From NCBI RefSeq assembly GCF_014334325.1, contig NZ_JACSET010000012.1, positions 1-64,000 on the forward strand: a stretch of 64,000 nt of DNA, in the 5' to 3' direction. The DNA comes from Treponema sp. Marseille-Q4130. Its GTDB lineage: Bacteria; Spirochaetota; Spirochaetia; Treponematales; Treponemataceae. Below the pieces are notes generated by a model, which saw nothing but the letters and a program-made list of their open reading frames with translations, did not search any database and had not been told where the DNA came from. Below, in pieces: positions 6,981 to 60,011 of this stretch (its first letter is position 1; every line of letters starts with the position of its first letter). The position numbers and the translations under genes are program-made.

Positions 6981-7083
6981 TTACCGTTTTCCGCCCATCG
7001 CGACCGACGCATTTGCATCGAGCGGATTGTTGTAATCGATATATGCCATAACTTCTTCGGCAAAGCGTTTGTCGATCATCTGC
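6981..7083 (-). pseudogene. Fragment: 3' end of lytic transglycosylase
   Basis: These 103 bp reproduce the last 34 codons of the transglycosylase at 8615-9379 ([20 protein letters not shown] region) with about 2 mismatches over the first 100 bp, and end in TAA where the intact gene has TGA. The fragment has no start and is cut at the duplication join at 7083/7084. It is a passenger of the tandem duplication. Confidence 0.85.
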
Positions 7084-7184
7084 ATTTGGAAGACGCGCTC
7101 GCCTCTTTCGGCGAAGTGACCGGAGAAGTGACGCCGGAAGACATACTCGAAAGCGTATTCGGGAATTTTTGCGTCGGAAAGTGA
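7084..7184 (+). pseudogene. Fragment: 3' end of mnmE
   Basis: These 101 bp repeat mnmE 5905-6005, ending in the same FCVGK and TGA, with four mismatches: one changes Leu to Phe (ASFGEV), the others are silent. There is no start, and the frame is open upstream only by chance, across intergenic and antisense sequence. It begins exactly at the duplication join. Confidence 0.88.
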
Positions 7185-7279: not shown

Positions 7280-7945
7280 TTAAAATTTGAATACCGGACC
7301 GACTTTTACGGTACCCATGTAGGAAAACCCGATCGAATACACTCGGTCATCGTTGCTGTTCTTACCTAAGTTTCCGACTGCGAATCCGAGCGCATCCGTC
7401 ACCATCAAATTGATGCCGATGTTTTTTGTAAAAAAGAACTGCGCCCCGGCCTGTACCGGAATGCCGAAAGTAACGAGAGGCATATTCTCCGGCAAGTATC
7501 CGTGGCTTTCAAAGCTATACGGTTTTAGTCTCCCGGTGCCCCAAATAAATCCGGACCCGATGTTGATAAAGAGTTTTTGGTTGACCAATTTAAATGTATA
7601 GCCGAAAATAACGCTCTGTTGAAAGATGATATTTTTATCCAGTTTTAAGTTTCCCGAATCGTCTTTAAGCTTCATTGTACCTTTGCCTATCGGAGAAAAA
7701 TCGTTGTTTACCATAAAAGTAAAACCTTTGTTCGTAATAAGCCCCAGCGTTATACCGACGGGCATGTGATTGAAATACATCTTACAGGTTTCACGGTCGC
7801 CGGCATGCGATCCTTCTTGCGCTACTGCGATCCCTATGCTGCTCGTATTGGAAAAGCCTATCGTGGGCGAGAGGATAAATTCCCCAGCAAACGAATGCGC
7901 GGAAACCGCCACTGCTGCAAAAAAAATTAAAAACAGTTTTTTCAT
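7280..7945 (-). CDS. Small outer-membrane beta-barrel-like protein (copy 2)
   Basis: A 221-residue paralogue of 6191-6865: signal peptide MKKLFLIFFAAVAVSAHSFA, barrel-like alternating strands, terminal GPVFKF. Shared blocks include [33 protein letters not shown] and [10 protein letters not shown]; the variable segments (residues about 35-55, 90-100, 140-160, 195-205) would be loops. Unlike copy 1, its 5' flank contains a structured repeat (7959-8258) that ends in a ribosome site AGGAG about 7 bp before the ATG, so the two copies are probably expressed differently. Function unknown. Confidence 0.75.
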   Translation of the reverse strand: MKKLFLIFFAAVAVSAHSFAGEFILSPTIGFSNTSSIGIAVAQEGSHAGDRETCKMYFNHMPVGITLGLITNKGFTFMVNNDFSPIGKGTMKLKDDSGNLKLDKNIIFQQSVIFGYTFKLVNQKLFINIGSGFIWGTGRLKPYSFESHGYLPENMPLVTFGIPVQAGAQFFFTKNIGINLMVTDALGFAVGNLGKNSNDDRVYSIGFSYMGTVKVGPVFKF

Positions 7946-7958
7946 TGTACACTCCTAT

Positions 7959-8258
7959 AAAAAACTTTTACAGGAAGTTTCAACTTCCGAAAAAGTTTTT
8001 AGCCGTGCGCGCTAGCGCACGCGTTAATAATCGAGTTTGTAAAATAACATGCATCGTATCCATCCGATTTTTATCGGAACGGTACGTATACAAGTTTTCT
8101 GCAAACATCCGAGCAAACTCGAGATAAGAACGCTGCGATTTCGAGCAATGCGCAGAAATCGCGAGTGTCTCCTATAAATAAAAAACGCTTCGGCGTTTTT
8201 CTTCTCCAGACTTTAACGACGGCGATATTTCAGACGTTGCTTTTTATCATACCTCCTT
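7959..8258 (-). ncRNA. Structured leader repeat, copy 1 (5' leader of the surface-protein gene)
   Basis: Read on the minus strand: a GGAGG site and six-codon minicistron (8230-8250), an approximately 85-bp insert not present in the other copy, an arm CTCGAGTTTGC and its partner CAAACTCGA enclosing a smaller hairpin (CCGAT/ATCGG), a GTGCGC/GCGCAC hairpin (8005-8020), and a final long hairpin (7959-8000) whose core is GGAAGTT/AACTTCC, ending beside the ribosome site of the gene. A second copy lies at 59637-59850, upstream of an unrelated gene, with the same order of parts. The core of the last hairpin has a different sequence there (GGATAT/ATATCC) but still pairs, which argues that the RNA fold is what is kept. 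It matches no riboswitch I recognise. Confidence 0.6.
8230..8250 (-). CDS. Leader minicistron, six codons
   Basis: An ATG preceded by AAAGGAGGT opens a six-codon frame, M-I-K-S-N-V, then TGA. The equivalent frame at 59823-59843 encodes M-V-K-S-V-V with the same spacing and GGGAGGT site. Conservation of site, start, length and stop suggests that translation of this leader matters, perhaps for folding of the RNA downstream. Too short to be certain. Confidence 0.4.
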   Translation of the reverse strand: MIKSNV

Positions 8259-8614: not shown

Positions 8615-9379
8615 TCAGCGTTTTCCGCCCATCGCGACCGACGCATTCGCATCGAGCGGATTGTTGTAATCGATATATGCCATAACTTCTTCGGCAAAGC
8701 GTTTGTCGATCATCTGCTTGTGCGTCATGATATTTCCGATATAGTTGAGTGTTGACTGCGGCGTACTGTTTGCGCGCACGCGGTTCGCACCCGCGTTGTA
8801 CATCGCAAGCGCGGGGATGATATTTCCGGCGATGTTGAGGCAAAAGCGCAAGTGCGCCATACCGTAGCGCGCGCTGACTGCGGGATTGAAAAAATCTTTT
8901 TCGCCGAGCTGAGGAAACGAGCGGTCGTTGAGCTGGAAGAGCCCGCGGTCGATTGAGCTGTTCGTATTGTAATTGACCGCGCGTATATTGTAGCGGCTTT
9001 CCGTATATGCGAGCGAAAATGCGAGCGACAGCGGAATATCGTTTTTGTCGGCGAATTCGAGGATGGCCAGCGTAATGTCGCGGTTGTTCGTTTCGCTGAT
9101 ATAAAAATCTTCGACGGCGAGCCGGTAATACGGCTGGCGGTACAGCGTGAGCCCTTCGTCTCCGTGCCGGACGACGGCGGGTTTGTCGGACAGCGGCGTA
9201 TTGAATTCCGCCCGTATTTTCGGCCTTTCGTTTTTCGCTGCGGGAATGTCGAAGGGGGCGACCTTTTGTTCGGGAAATATAAAAAATATCGACAGCGACA
9301 ATGCGCCGAGCACGCTTATACAGATGAGAGCGCTTTTCCCTGTCTTTGCAAAATCTTTTCCGTTCGGTTTGTATTTCAT
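8615..9379 (-). CDS. Membrane-anchored lytic transglycosylase (SLT domain)
   Basis: Cleaves peptidoglycan glycan strands. From the ATG at 9379 the product is about 254 residues: a cytoplasmic stub, a membrane segment (about residues 17-34, SALICISVLGALSLSIFF), a spacer and a C-terminal Slt/GEWL-type domain with the catalytic Glu in YTESRYN, the following SSIDRGLFQLN and AMYNAGANRV, all typical of the family. The frame is open a further 49 codons to a TTG at 9526; neither start has a clear ribosome site, and I prefer 9379 because it puts the anchor at the N-terminus. Its last 34 codons are duplicated at 6981-7083. Confidence 0.85.
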   Translation of the reverse strand: MKYKPNGKDFAKTGKSALICISVLGALSLSIFFIFPEQKVAPFDIPAAKNERPKIRAEFNTPLSDKPAVVRHGDEGLTLYRQPYYRLAVEDFYISETNNRDITLAILEFADKNDIPLSLAFSLAYTESRYNIRAVNYNTNSSIDRGLFQLNDRSFPQLGEKDFFNPAVSARYGMAHLRFCLNIAGNIIPALAMYNAGANRVRANSTPQSTLNYIGNIMTHKQMIDKRFAEEVMAYIDYNNPLDANASVAMGGKR

Positions 9380-34355: not shown

Positions 34356-34870
34356 ATCCGAGCAGTGCGGAGGATTTATGTGCGTCTCCTATAAAAAGAA
34401 AAACGGCTCTGCCGTTTTTCAACTCTCGACTTCAAGAATGCTTCCGAGCAGTGCGCAGGATTTATGTGCGTCTCCTATCACAAAGCGCGCGTAAACGTCG
34501 CGCTTTGTGTCCTCATAAGGAATTGCAGTCGGCTTTCATACCTTTTATAGCATCCGAAAGGATGGGGTATGAAAGCCTCCGCGCGGATAAAAGAAAAACG
34601 GCTCTGCCGTTTTTCAACTCTCGACTTATTTACAGATTCCGAGCAGTGTTCGTTCGCGGTACATCCGTGTACCGCTCACTACCGCATTTTTGCTTTGCAA
34701 AAATGCGCAGCTGTTTTGCAAAGCTGCGACACGGCATCCCTGCCGTGCATTGAATAAAACAAAGATTACCGTGCAACTTGCAACGAGCGCGAAGTTCCCT
34801 GCGCAACTTTTCAAAAACTGCAAGCCTGCCGGCTTGTTCTGAAAGGAAATTTATTATAGTATCCGCTAAA
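34356..34870. repeat. Array of perfect hairpins and short direct repeats, no gene
   Basis: At least eight separate hairpins follow one another: GCACATAAATCC/GGATTTATGTGC just after the hisA-hisIE stop; AAAAACGGC/GCCGTTTTT twice (about 34398-34418 and 34594-34614); CACAAAGCGCG/CGCGCTTTGTG (about 34479-34509); GGCTTTCATACC/GGTATGAAAGCC (about 34531-34577); CGGTACA/TGTACCG; GCATTTTTGC/GCAAAAATGC; GCAGCT/AGCTGC; CACGGCA/TGCCGTG. CCGAGCAGTG occurs three times and GATTTATGTGCGTCTCCTAT twice. Parts match the insert in the leader repeat at about 8140-8215. The stretch from here to 34969 has no credible reading frame. Confidence 0.75.
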
Positions 34871-58798: not shown

Positions 58799-59623
58799 TC
58801 ATTTCGGGTGCGCTTTAAAATCCTGAACGATGCTTATGCGGGACTTTACGTCGTATCCGGGCATCTCTTTTTTTGAAAGCGCGACGGCTTGTTCGACGAC
58901 GGCCGAAGAATCCGCAACACCCTGCAGCACAATCGTATTGCCGTCGATAACGGCATGCAAAAATTCGATATTGACCTTATGTGTAAATACGAGCGTATTG
59001 ACGAGGCGTTGTGCGGCAAGCAGCGTTTTTATTTTTTCCGCTCCGAGCGCGTCGCGTTCGGATGAAATATGCGATTTAACAAAATCGGCGATAAGCGCAC
59101 CGCCTTCATCCGCACCGATAAGTCCCGTATTCAGCACAAAATGAAAATGCGTCGGATCGGCTATATCGATGTCAAAAAAACTTTTATGAAAACCGCTCCT
59201 GTTTTTATCGCTTTCATCGATCTTTTGCTGTGCCTGTTTTTTCGTGCATGCGAATTCGTTTTCGAGCCTCTGCAGTCTGACGGAATCTTTCGCAACGAGA
59301 CGGAATGAAACGACATTTGGAACGTCTTCCAATATGATATACGAACCGCGTCCGATAAGCACACAGTTGTTTTCGCTCGCCGCTTCGAGGACTGCCGTCT
59401 GCAGATAGTGCAAATATTCGTCGCGGTCTTTGACGAGTGCGGCAAAAAATCCCGGTTTTTTTTCATCGTACTTGCCGAGCTTTTCGGCGGGAAATCCGTG
59501 CTGCACGATGCGTTTTTCAAGCTCATCCCTGCGGATAAACACGTATCCGAGTTTTTCCGCCGCGATCGCAGCGATTTCATCGCCGAGCGCCGCAATCTGC
59601 CGGGAAATCGCAACTATAGCCAT
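58799..59623 (-). CDS. Cytidylate-kinase-like protein with C-terminal BON domain
   Basis: A 274-residue protein. Residues about 1-190 match the cytidylate kinase-like family (PF13189): AIVAISRQIAALGDEIA in P-loop position, CVLIGRGSYIIL, and FRLVAKDSVRLQRL. The usual GxxGxGK P-loop glycines are weak here (SRQIAALGDE). Residues about 200-272 look like a BON domain (LVNTLVFTHKVNIEFLHAVI, TIVLQGVADSSAVVEQAV), which binds phospholipid. The mix suggests a membrane-linked kinase-like sensor. Start is the ATG at 59623 after GGGAGGTGCGT; the leader repeat at 59637-59850 provides that site. Confidence 0.75.
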   Translation of the reverse strand: MAIVAISRQIAALGDEIAAIAAEKLGYVFIRRDELEKRIVQHGFPAEKLGKYDEKKPGFFAALVKDRDEYLHYLQTAVLEAASENNCVLIGRGSYIILEDVPNVVSFRLVAKDSVRLQRLENEFACTKKQAQQKIDESDKNRSGFHKSFFDIDIADPTHFHFVLNTGLIGADEGGALIADFVKSHISSERDALGAEKIKTLLAAQRLVNTLVFTHKVNIEFLHAVIDGNTIVLQGVADSSAVVEQAVALSKKEMPGYDVKSRISIVQDFKAHPK

Positions 59624-59636
59624 ACGCACCTCCCAT

Positions 59637-59850
59637 AAAAACTTTTGCAGGATATTTTAATATCCGAAAAAGTTTTTAGCCGTGCGCGAGAGCGCACACG
59701 TTAAATAGTCGAGTTTGCAAAATAAAGTATATCGTATGTATACGATTTTATCGAAAAAAATACGTATACACGTTTTCTGCAAATACTCGCGCAAACTCGA
59801 GGTAAAAAGCGGCAGCGATATTTCAGACGACGCTTTTTACCATACCTCCC
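59637..59850 (-). ncRNA. Structured leader repeat, copy 2 (5' leader of the cytidylate-kinase-like gene)
   Basis: Same order of parts as 7959-8258 and shorter by about 85 bp. From its 5' end on the minus strand: GGGAGGT and six-codon minicistron (59823-59843), a hairpin GGTAAAAAGCG/CGCTTTTTACC that includes the minicistron start, the arm CTCGAGTTTGC pairing with GCAAACTCGA, an inner CGAT/ATCG hairpin, GTGCGC/GCGCAC (59682-59697), and a last hairpin (59637-59677) with core GGATAT/ATATCC. The GGGAGG ribosome site follows directly. The part CTGCAAAAGTTTTTATGGGA occurs at both ends of this element. Confidence 0.6.
59823..59843 (-). CDS. Leader minicistron, six codons
   Basis: ATG preceded by GGGAGGT; reads M-V-K-S-V-V then TGA. 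The counterpart at 8230-8250 reads M-I-K-S-N-V. Its first codons lie in the 5' arm of a hairpin. Confidence 0.4.
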   Translation of the reverse strand: MVKSVV

Positions 59851-60011
59851 ATAAAAACTTTTGCAGGAAGTTTTCAGCCGTACACGCAAATATACGCGCA
59901 TACACGCTTTTATAATTTCCGTAAATACAGTATAACTCAATATAACCGAAAAATAAAGCAATTTGTTTTATCGGAAAACTTTATATATCAACGGTACGGG
60001 AGCGATCGGAT

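Follow-up and report, generated by a model that had tools for sequence, protein, structure and literature searches.

A probable mobile four-hairpin element of Treponema, a divergent relative of TD-1 and TD-2, with insertions at the Shine–Dalgarno sites of genes

The 64-kb window, i.e., the whole stretch of DNA analyzed here, contains two related leader sequences on its minus strand, copy A at 7,959 and copy B at 59,637. Both loci are very likely copies of a non-coding, four-hairpin mobile element which is a divergent relative of TD-1/TD-2 and inserts in the sense direction at the Shine–Dalgarno (SD) site of a gene. The original prediction had left open a regulatory RNA class and a mobile leader cassette bringing its own ribosome site; of these, the mobile cassette has good support from orthologous places found both empty and full, from SD-containing direct repeats and from the unrelatedness of the downstream genes. 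The mobility of the TD-1-related element and its entry into SD sites are what is new here; among open-licence papers, none was found that describes a TD-1-type element as an SD-targeting mobile sequence. Mobility is read from the alleles of the compared genomes, not watched. The genomes referred to below are the source genome (G000), Treponema socranskii subsp. paredis (G039), T. socranskii subsp. socranskii (G040) and T. parvum (G041), and L numbers denote individual loci.

Comparison of the sequences of copies A and B reveals the same ordered parts (Table 1). In the sense direction, these are an SD core GGAG, stem 1, stem 2, a linker of approximately TATT, stem 3, stem 4, AT(G/A)GGAG and the start codon. 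In the element, stem 1 is formed by GATAAAAAGCGCCG paired with CGTCGCTTTTTATC, stem 2 by CGAGTTTGC paired with GCAAACTCG, and stem 3 by TGTGCGC paired with GCGCACG. Stem 2 encloses a variable inner hairpin in the long form of the element (about 213 nt) or a few bases in the short form (about 144 nt), and stem 4 consists of an A/T-rich outer helix, a small asymmetric loop and a variable inner helix, giving four hairpins in series. The ordered arrangement noted originally is thus confirmed for both minus-strand loci: after stem 1 come the long-range CGAGTTTGC/(G/A)CAAACTCG pairing, then the GTGCGC/GCGCAC hairpin, and last a terminal hairpin which extends to the ribosome site of the downstream gene. 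A ribosome site with a six-codon minicistron had also been counted among the conserved parts, and is rejected as such: only 23 of 80 left junctions have the ATG and 57 lack it, the others mostly carrying the element's own GTAC at the minicistron start position (35/80). The stretch taken for a minicistron lies in the 5' arm of stem 1, and what was taken for its ribosome site is the host gene's own SD, interrupted by the element. For the gene behind copy B, described as cytidylate-kinase-like/BON, the former part stands by a match to Pfam Cytidylate_kin2, and the latter finds no BON match at E ≤ 1e-4.

Table 1. Positions of the two window copies, their parts and the adjoining genes.
Feature	Position	Strand	Basis or remark
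Copy A with both flanking GGAG cores	7952..8256	-	TD-1 match 7,953-8,131, 47.5 bits; absent in G040 at L203
DUF2715 gene behind copy A	7,280-7,945		ATG at 7,945
Copy A, left GGAG (interrupted SD of the host gene)	8253..8256	-	Identical in empty allele L203
Copy A, stem 1, 5' arm (site of the claimed minicistron)	8235..8248	-	Sequence; helix 1 pairing, 31 copies
Copy A, hairpin module of about 87 nt interrupting the 3' arm of stem 1 (approximate ends)	8128..8214	-	By eye against copies without the module
Copy A, stem 2, 5' arm CGAGTTTGC	8113..8121	-	Sequence, TD-1 match
Copy A, stem 2, 3' arm ACAAACTCG	8032..8040	-	Sequence, TD-1 match
Copy A, stem 3, GTGCGC/GCGCAC	8005..8020	-	Sequence; helix 4 of the 31-copy test
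Copy A, stem 4, terminal hairpin	7960..8000	-	Sequence; helices 5 and 6 of the 31-copy test
Copy A, right GGAG (present SD before the start codon)	7952..7955	-	Sequence
Copy B with both flanking GGAG cores	59630..59849	-	TD-1 match 59,631-59,808, 51.2 bits
Cytidylate-kinase-like gene behind copy B			ATG at 59,623
Copy B, stem 1	59801..59841	-	Sequence; helix 1 of the 31-copy test
Copy B, stem 2 with inner hairpin	59710..59799 (arms 59,791-59,799 and 59,710-59,718)	-	Sequence, TD-1 match; helices 2 and 3
Copy B, stem 3	59681..59698	-	Sequence; helix 4
Copy B, stem 4	59637..59677	-	Sequence; helices 5 and 6
Older element tail, remnant directly upstream of copy B	59851..59885	-	By eye; L161 tail at the same place

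Large modules break stems 1, 3 and 4 in many copies. On the minus strand of the window, 34,359-34,640 holds at least two units of a different hairpin repeat, in which GAAAAACGG..CCGTTTTTC is followed by TATAGGAGACGC and a further hairpin; this repeat is akin to the module inserted in copy A (approximately 8,128-8,214). In T. parvum, an unrelated hairpin, GCGCTTTC..GAAAGCGC, replaces stem 3 at L170 and L172, the rest of the element being kept. Also, a stretch (CAGATGATCGACAAACGC...) close to the end of the upstream gene recurs downstream of the DUF2715 gene (7,000-7,090 and about 8,630-8,720; by eye), and copy A and its gene therefore sit between two direct repeats.

The folding energy of both copies is lower than that of all dinucleotide shuffles (z -4.27, 0/200; z -4.24, 0/100). 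When 62 pairs were examined in 31 distinct full-length copies, 94.1% of cells were paired, and a shift of the partners by 1-3 columns reduced pairing to 38-52%. The predicted co-variation of the stems is real: among these 31 copies, two-sided changes are found at 12 pairs (shuffles, 8.1 ± 1.6; 5 of 500 reach 12) and in 39 cells (shuffles, 13.7 ± 2.9; 0/500), with further pair types not in excess (33 vs. 32.2 in shuffles; 224/500). The clearest case is the inner helix of stem 4, and the compensated core of the terminal hairpin noted originally is seen at three pairs, compensated in 5, 6 and 11 sequences. Alignment A3 is without L154, which has a nested module, and without L170 and L172, which have another stem 3; all three are included in alignment A2. 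Among one-sided pair changes, G-U on the sense strand is not favored over A-C (17 vs. 14 distinct), and the corresponding counts in tails (8 vs. 11) and in all (14 vs. 12) likewise show no sense-strand asymmetry. As G-U and A-C are about equally frequent among one-sided changes, the covariation fails to single out RNA over DNA hairpins.

With copy B as the query, at least 60 BLAST pieces were obtained in the source genome (40 of 140 candidates scored). Copies are also present in G039, G040 and G041, and weak pieces in three more genomes. The element flanks of the source genome resemble those of the two T. socranskii subspecies so closely that it probably belongs to the T. socranskii group. The tail model R1 matches 51 of the 146 treponemal genomes searched at E 1e-6, including 31 of 64 genomes of good quality, and exceeds 100 bits in seven genomes, three of which are G039, G040 and G041. 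With further copies present in related genomes and stems that co-vary, neither of the two outcomes named originally as refuting the prediction occurred. A further 20 loci of the genus were picked by the tail model. Seventeen of these are divergent, and every one of the 20 has a TD-1 match with E ≤ 0.01; in the divergent loci, stem 1, which is outside the tail model, is also present with other sequences (by eye). One copy count, swollen by a second family and by antisense echoes of the palindromic stem 4, was set aside. This second TD-1-like family of the source genome (L252, L253, L254 and L268) ends in AAGGA and includes tandem copies with a period of about 143 bases. In the draft of G040, element matches lie at contig ends (C80:1-213, C64:4-124, C53:5-107), as if the repeat broke the assembly.

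At the Rfam gathering threshold, only a tRNA is detected in the window. At a permissive threshold, copies B and A match TD-1 (RF03155) with 51.2 and 47.5 bits (E 2.2e-05 and 1.3e-04), below the TD-1 gathering score of 64.5 bits, and both align to positions 1-120 of the 120 model positions, consensus hairpins included. They are labeled TD-1-like here because they are homologous yet under the curated score. Three other copies pass this score, L046 of the source genome with 76.1 bits and L296 and L305 with 68.7 and 64.8 bits (G109, Treponema), and most of the remaining ones range from 38 to 64 bits. The order of the hairpins and the AUAGGA-like 3' end of TD-1 and TD-2 (RF03155 and RF03162; Rfam clan CL00124) are those of the window copies, whereas the TD-1 model is without stem 1 and without the long inner hairpin of stem 2, both of which the window copies contain. 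TD-2 matches the strand opposite to TD-1 at L305, L293 and L297; in our reading, the TD-1 model corresponds to stems 2-4 of one strand, and that of TD-2 to stems 3-1 of the opposite one. Judging from these alignments, the two families seem to describe one thing. Rfam lists TD-1 as Cis-reg and TD-2 as sRNA, i.e., as separate RNAs, whereas here they would correspond to opposite strands of one mobile element.

Comparison of orthologous places reveals full and empty sites in both directions. Of 41 elements in the source genome, 23 were placed by both flanks in G039 (14 occupied and 9 empty) and 14 in G040 (7 occupied and 7 empty); conversely, 25 of 40 elements of G039 were placed in the source genome (16 occupied and 9 empty), an occupied place being one with 45-1500 extra bases, whose identity as an element was checked in part. 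Comparisons of full with empty alleles number 25 for 19 elements; elements 29 and 30, compared with the paralogous L159, were dropped to leave 17 sites, and L028 vs. L227, from a separate comparison, is the eighteenth. At all 18 genes, the extra element ends at the gene's own SD. At 17 of 18 sites, the left flank runs into the SD core (by eye), the exception being L056, which has no left GGAG and precedes an iron alcohol dehydrogenase gene. Copy A is missing at the orthologous place in G040 (L203), where the flanks are 89% and 97% identical: the empty allele reads ...cctgtaaacaaaaGGAGtataaaATG and the full allele ...cctgtaaacaaaaGGAG-element-GGAGtgtacaATG. The place of copy B in G039 (L161) contains only a decayed tail. 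At 6 of the 17 sites, two other genomes both have the empty allele, which favors gain over loss. Site counts include copies common by descent, which are not independent.

The junctions contain direct repeats of variable length. The three bases following the left and right GGAG are identical in 11 of 80 copies (shuffle mean, 3.9; 0 of 5000 shuffles reach 11), and the two bases following them in 27 of 80 (shuffle mean, 15.1). Under strict ungapped scoring of 24 full/empty pairs, an SD-containing repeat, of 4 to at least 20 bases, is detected at 8 of 18 sites; at the other 10, it is blurred by differences between genomes and not resolved by this scoring. The direct repeats extend from 4 to about 22 nt, and thus the fixed-length target site duplication characteristic of MITEs is not seen. 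The 3' end of the element is constant, and its first base at the 5' end varies. L143 of G039, for which L235 is the empty allele, begins inside stem 1 and is flanked on either side by a repeat of about 22 bases which contains the start codon, with a 4-base overlap at the 5' joint; L052, with L224 as the empty allele, begins near the end of stem 2 and has GGAGTACG on both sides; and in other Treponema, GGGAGGTGTAA and GGAGGAAAAATG are repeated at L300 and L297, respectively (all by eye). Pieces with only the head also occur, of which L165 fits a deletion between the TTTTTAT repeats located in stem 1 and stem 4 (by eye). Taken together, the fixed 3' end, the ragged 5' ends and the differing lengths of the repeats suggest that copying starts at the 3' end.

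The sites entered are SDs of genes. In 104 of 116 element intervals, the tail is followed by an SD-like motif, tails being scored if the motif lay within 16 bases after them; the 12 dropped intervals comprise head-only pieces, contig ends, one match to an inserted module alone and tails with another purine run, the last including at least two (L140 and L147). An ORF of at least 60 aa starts on the same strand behind 99 of the 104 tails (36/39 in G000, 35/35 in G039, 17/19 in G040 and 11/11 in G041). As a control, the same ORF test was passed by 87 of the 345 GGAG sites present in the window and by 14 of the 27 intergenic ones. A wider group is less bound to SDs, as an ORF start follows 11 of the 17 divergent copies and 4 of the 16 second-family ones; among divergent copies, those ending in GGAG precede ORF starts and those of the AAGGAA type do not (by eye). 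Selection against other insertion sites surely contributes to this siting. Insertion is in the sense direction at the GGAG core, such that the old SD stays upstream and the GGAG-like end of the element comes to lie at the usual distance from the start codon.

The genes behind the copies are diverse. Behind the elements of the source genome are 36 ORFs; 29 of their proteins were scanned and 27 had matches, in 26 Pfam families, including aldolase, triosephosphate isomerase, serine hydroxymethyltransferase, flagellar rod, porin-like and permease families. Searches for a promoter or terminator in or near the two window copies gave counts of 0 and 0, then of 1 and 1, which are within the shuffle range.

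A mechanism consistent with these junctions is favored here. Copying would begin at the 3' end of the element, by pairing of the terminal GGAG to the strand complementary to the target SD. Microhomology would then serve to join the 5' end, in a process of target-primed or template-switch copying, for which the template might be RNA or single-stranded DNA. Copies would persist since the SD is rebuilt and the gene can still be translated, and for this reason would be tolerated even by genes of central metabolism. Some copies may later have acquired regulatory roles. We tentatively suggest that TD-1/TD-2 is a bacterial SINE-like parasite of translation start sites, which primes by its 3' GGAG on the SD complement, is copied from RNA or single-stranded DNA, is joined by microhomology to yield ragged 5' ends, and survives by rebuilding the SD; this full scheme is a possibility rather than the expected outcome.

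The main rival to such 3'-first copying is a transposase that recognizes hairpins. In a MITE-like non-autonomous transposon, a transposase acting in trans would recognize the terminal hairpins and insert the element at GGAG, and the ragged 5' ends would be due to later decay. The small size, the many copies and the direct repeats are consistent with this idea, as is a 7-nt ATAAAAA sequence which is inverted within both terminal hairpins (by eye), but no terminal inverted repeat is seen by eye at the very ends, the length of the direct repeats varies as above, and 5'-truncated copies bear repeats of their own. In addition, the transposase families searched are missing from G039, which carries insertions absent from the source genome. 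Within the sensitivity of the models and for a draft genome, G039 has no match to Y1_Tnp, IS110 DEDD transposase or serine recombinase. Elsewhere, Y1_Tnp, the enzyme expected for a derivative of IS200/IS605 or REP/RAYT, has no match in G041 and one partial-profile match in G000; DEDD transposase, expected for an IS110/IS1111 derivative, has none in G000 and three in G041; and serine recombinase, expected for an IS607 derivative, has matches in both. Among the places read (40 of 140 candidates scored), none had a gene lying between head and tail, as an autonomous copy would. A MITE-like transposon is viewed as a possible but less likely alternative.

A SINE-like retroposon or a group II intron derivative, in which a nick in the target would prime a reverse transcriptase to copy the RNA of the element, is rather unlikely. 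It would explain the constant 3' end, the 5' truncation, the variable repeats and the 4-base overlap at the 5' joint of L143, as well as sense insertion into transcribed leaders. However, RVT_1 has no match in any of the three copy-bearing genomes searched (G000, G039 and G041), and the pair changes are not skewed towards the sense RNA. RVT_1, Y1, IS110 DEDD and serine recombinase are each rejected as the common mobilizer, as their models have no match in the draft genome of G039.

Less likely still is a cis-regulatory RNA class, in which the leader would sense something or bind a protein to control the translation of many genes and the copies would have been spread and kept by selection for regulation. 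The Rfam type of TD-1 (Cis-reg), the conserved folding and covariation, and the position of copies directly before start codons all agree with such a role. By contrast, close subspecies differ in their sites, the downstream genes are functionally unrelated, many copies contain large modules inside stems 1, 3 and 4, and pair changes lack sense-strand asymmetry. Moreover, the mean predicted accessibility of the SD, 0.56 in full and 0.46 in empty alleles, shows no significant difference (p = 0.29, 23 comparisons).

Cassette-like recombination of folded single strands by an integron integrase is highly improbable. The integrase model TIGR02249 scores over its cut-off in five of six element-bearing genomes, and below it, in pieces, in the sixth, and maintenance of structure under sequence change would suit such a reaction. 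Integron sites have their crossover at GTT. The junctions of the Treponema element are instead at GGAG, its four separate hairpins differ from a single attC-like hairpin, and the tail model has no match in two integrase loci; the integron integrase is rejected as the mobilizer on the grounds of these junctions and loci. As to the integrase genes themselves, the match at G000:C13:161153-162101 is in two pieces, the first with stop codons, and single matches over the cut-off are present in G039, G063, G070 and G141.

Duplication of genes along with their leaders, with no insertion, is the least credible explanation and is rejected for copies with empty orthologous sites, as full and empty alleles have the same gene and differ by the leader and 27 proteins fall into 26 Pfam families; it can hold only for a PF04754-like group, from which it draws its support, L041 and L048 being of the same short-form subtype and preceding PF04754-related genes. 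The short-form copies L041, L048, L049, L050 and L054 precede mutually similar genes, those of L041 and L048 matching PF04754, and this group probably represents duplications of gene plus leader.

The mobile element proposed here would explain in concrete terms what the Rfam motifs TD-1 and TD-2 represent. It is also a warning that covariation and a place before genes are not sufficient alone as proof of a regulatory RNA. If correct, an element which enters and rebuilds SDs would represent an unusual selfish lifestyle in a gene-dense genome, and, if the SINE-like scheme holds, a family filed as cis-regulatory RNA would be a widespread selfish element that rewrites host leaders. Since full and empty alleles both occur naturally, it can be tested directly how the leader affects translation and how the element moves.

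Several known systems resemble the Treponema element in part. SINE-like retroposons have a constant 3' end, 5' truncation and variable direct repeats, all of which are shared by this element; unlike SINEs, it is bacterial, is without a poly-A tail and resides in three genomes in which an RVT_1 match is absent. In Neisseria, REP2 carries a ribosome site. REP2 and CREN of Neisseria meningitidis are, like the Treponema element, repeats before unrelated genes. CREN, a 150-bp repeat before nhba, is reported to function in contact regulation (PMC9031163); its comparison with the Treponema element is by description. Bacterial MITEs and small repeats such as RUP, BOX, SPRITE, ERIC and YPAL/RU-2 are likewise small, non-coding, high-copy and hairpin-forming sequences; the duplications of YPAL/RU-2 vary from 3 to 26 bp (PMC2229807) and pneumococcal repeats are inserted into one another (PMC3049150). 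Unlike these repeats, the Treponema element shows by eye no inverted repeat at its very ends, targets the SD in the sense direction and rebuilds it.
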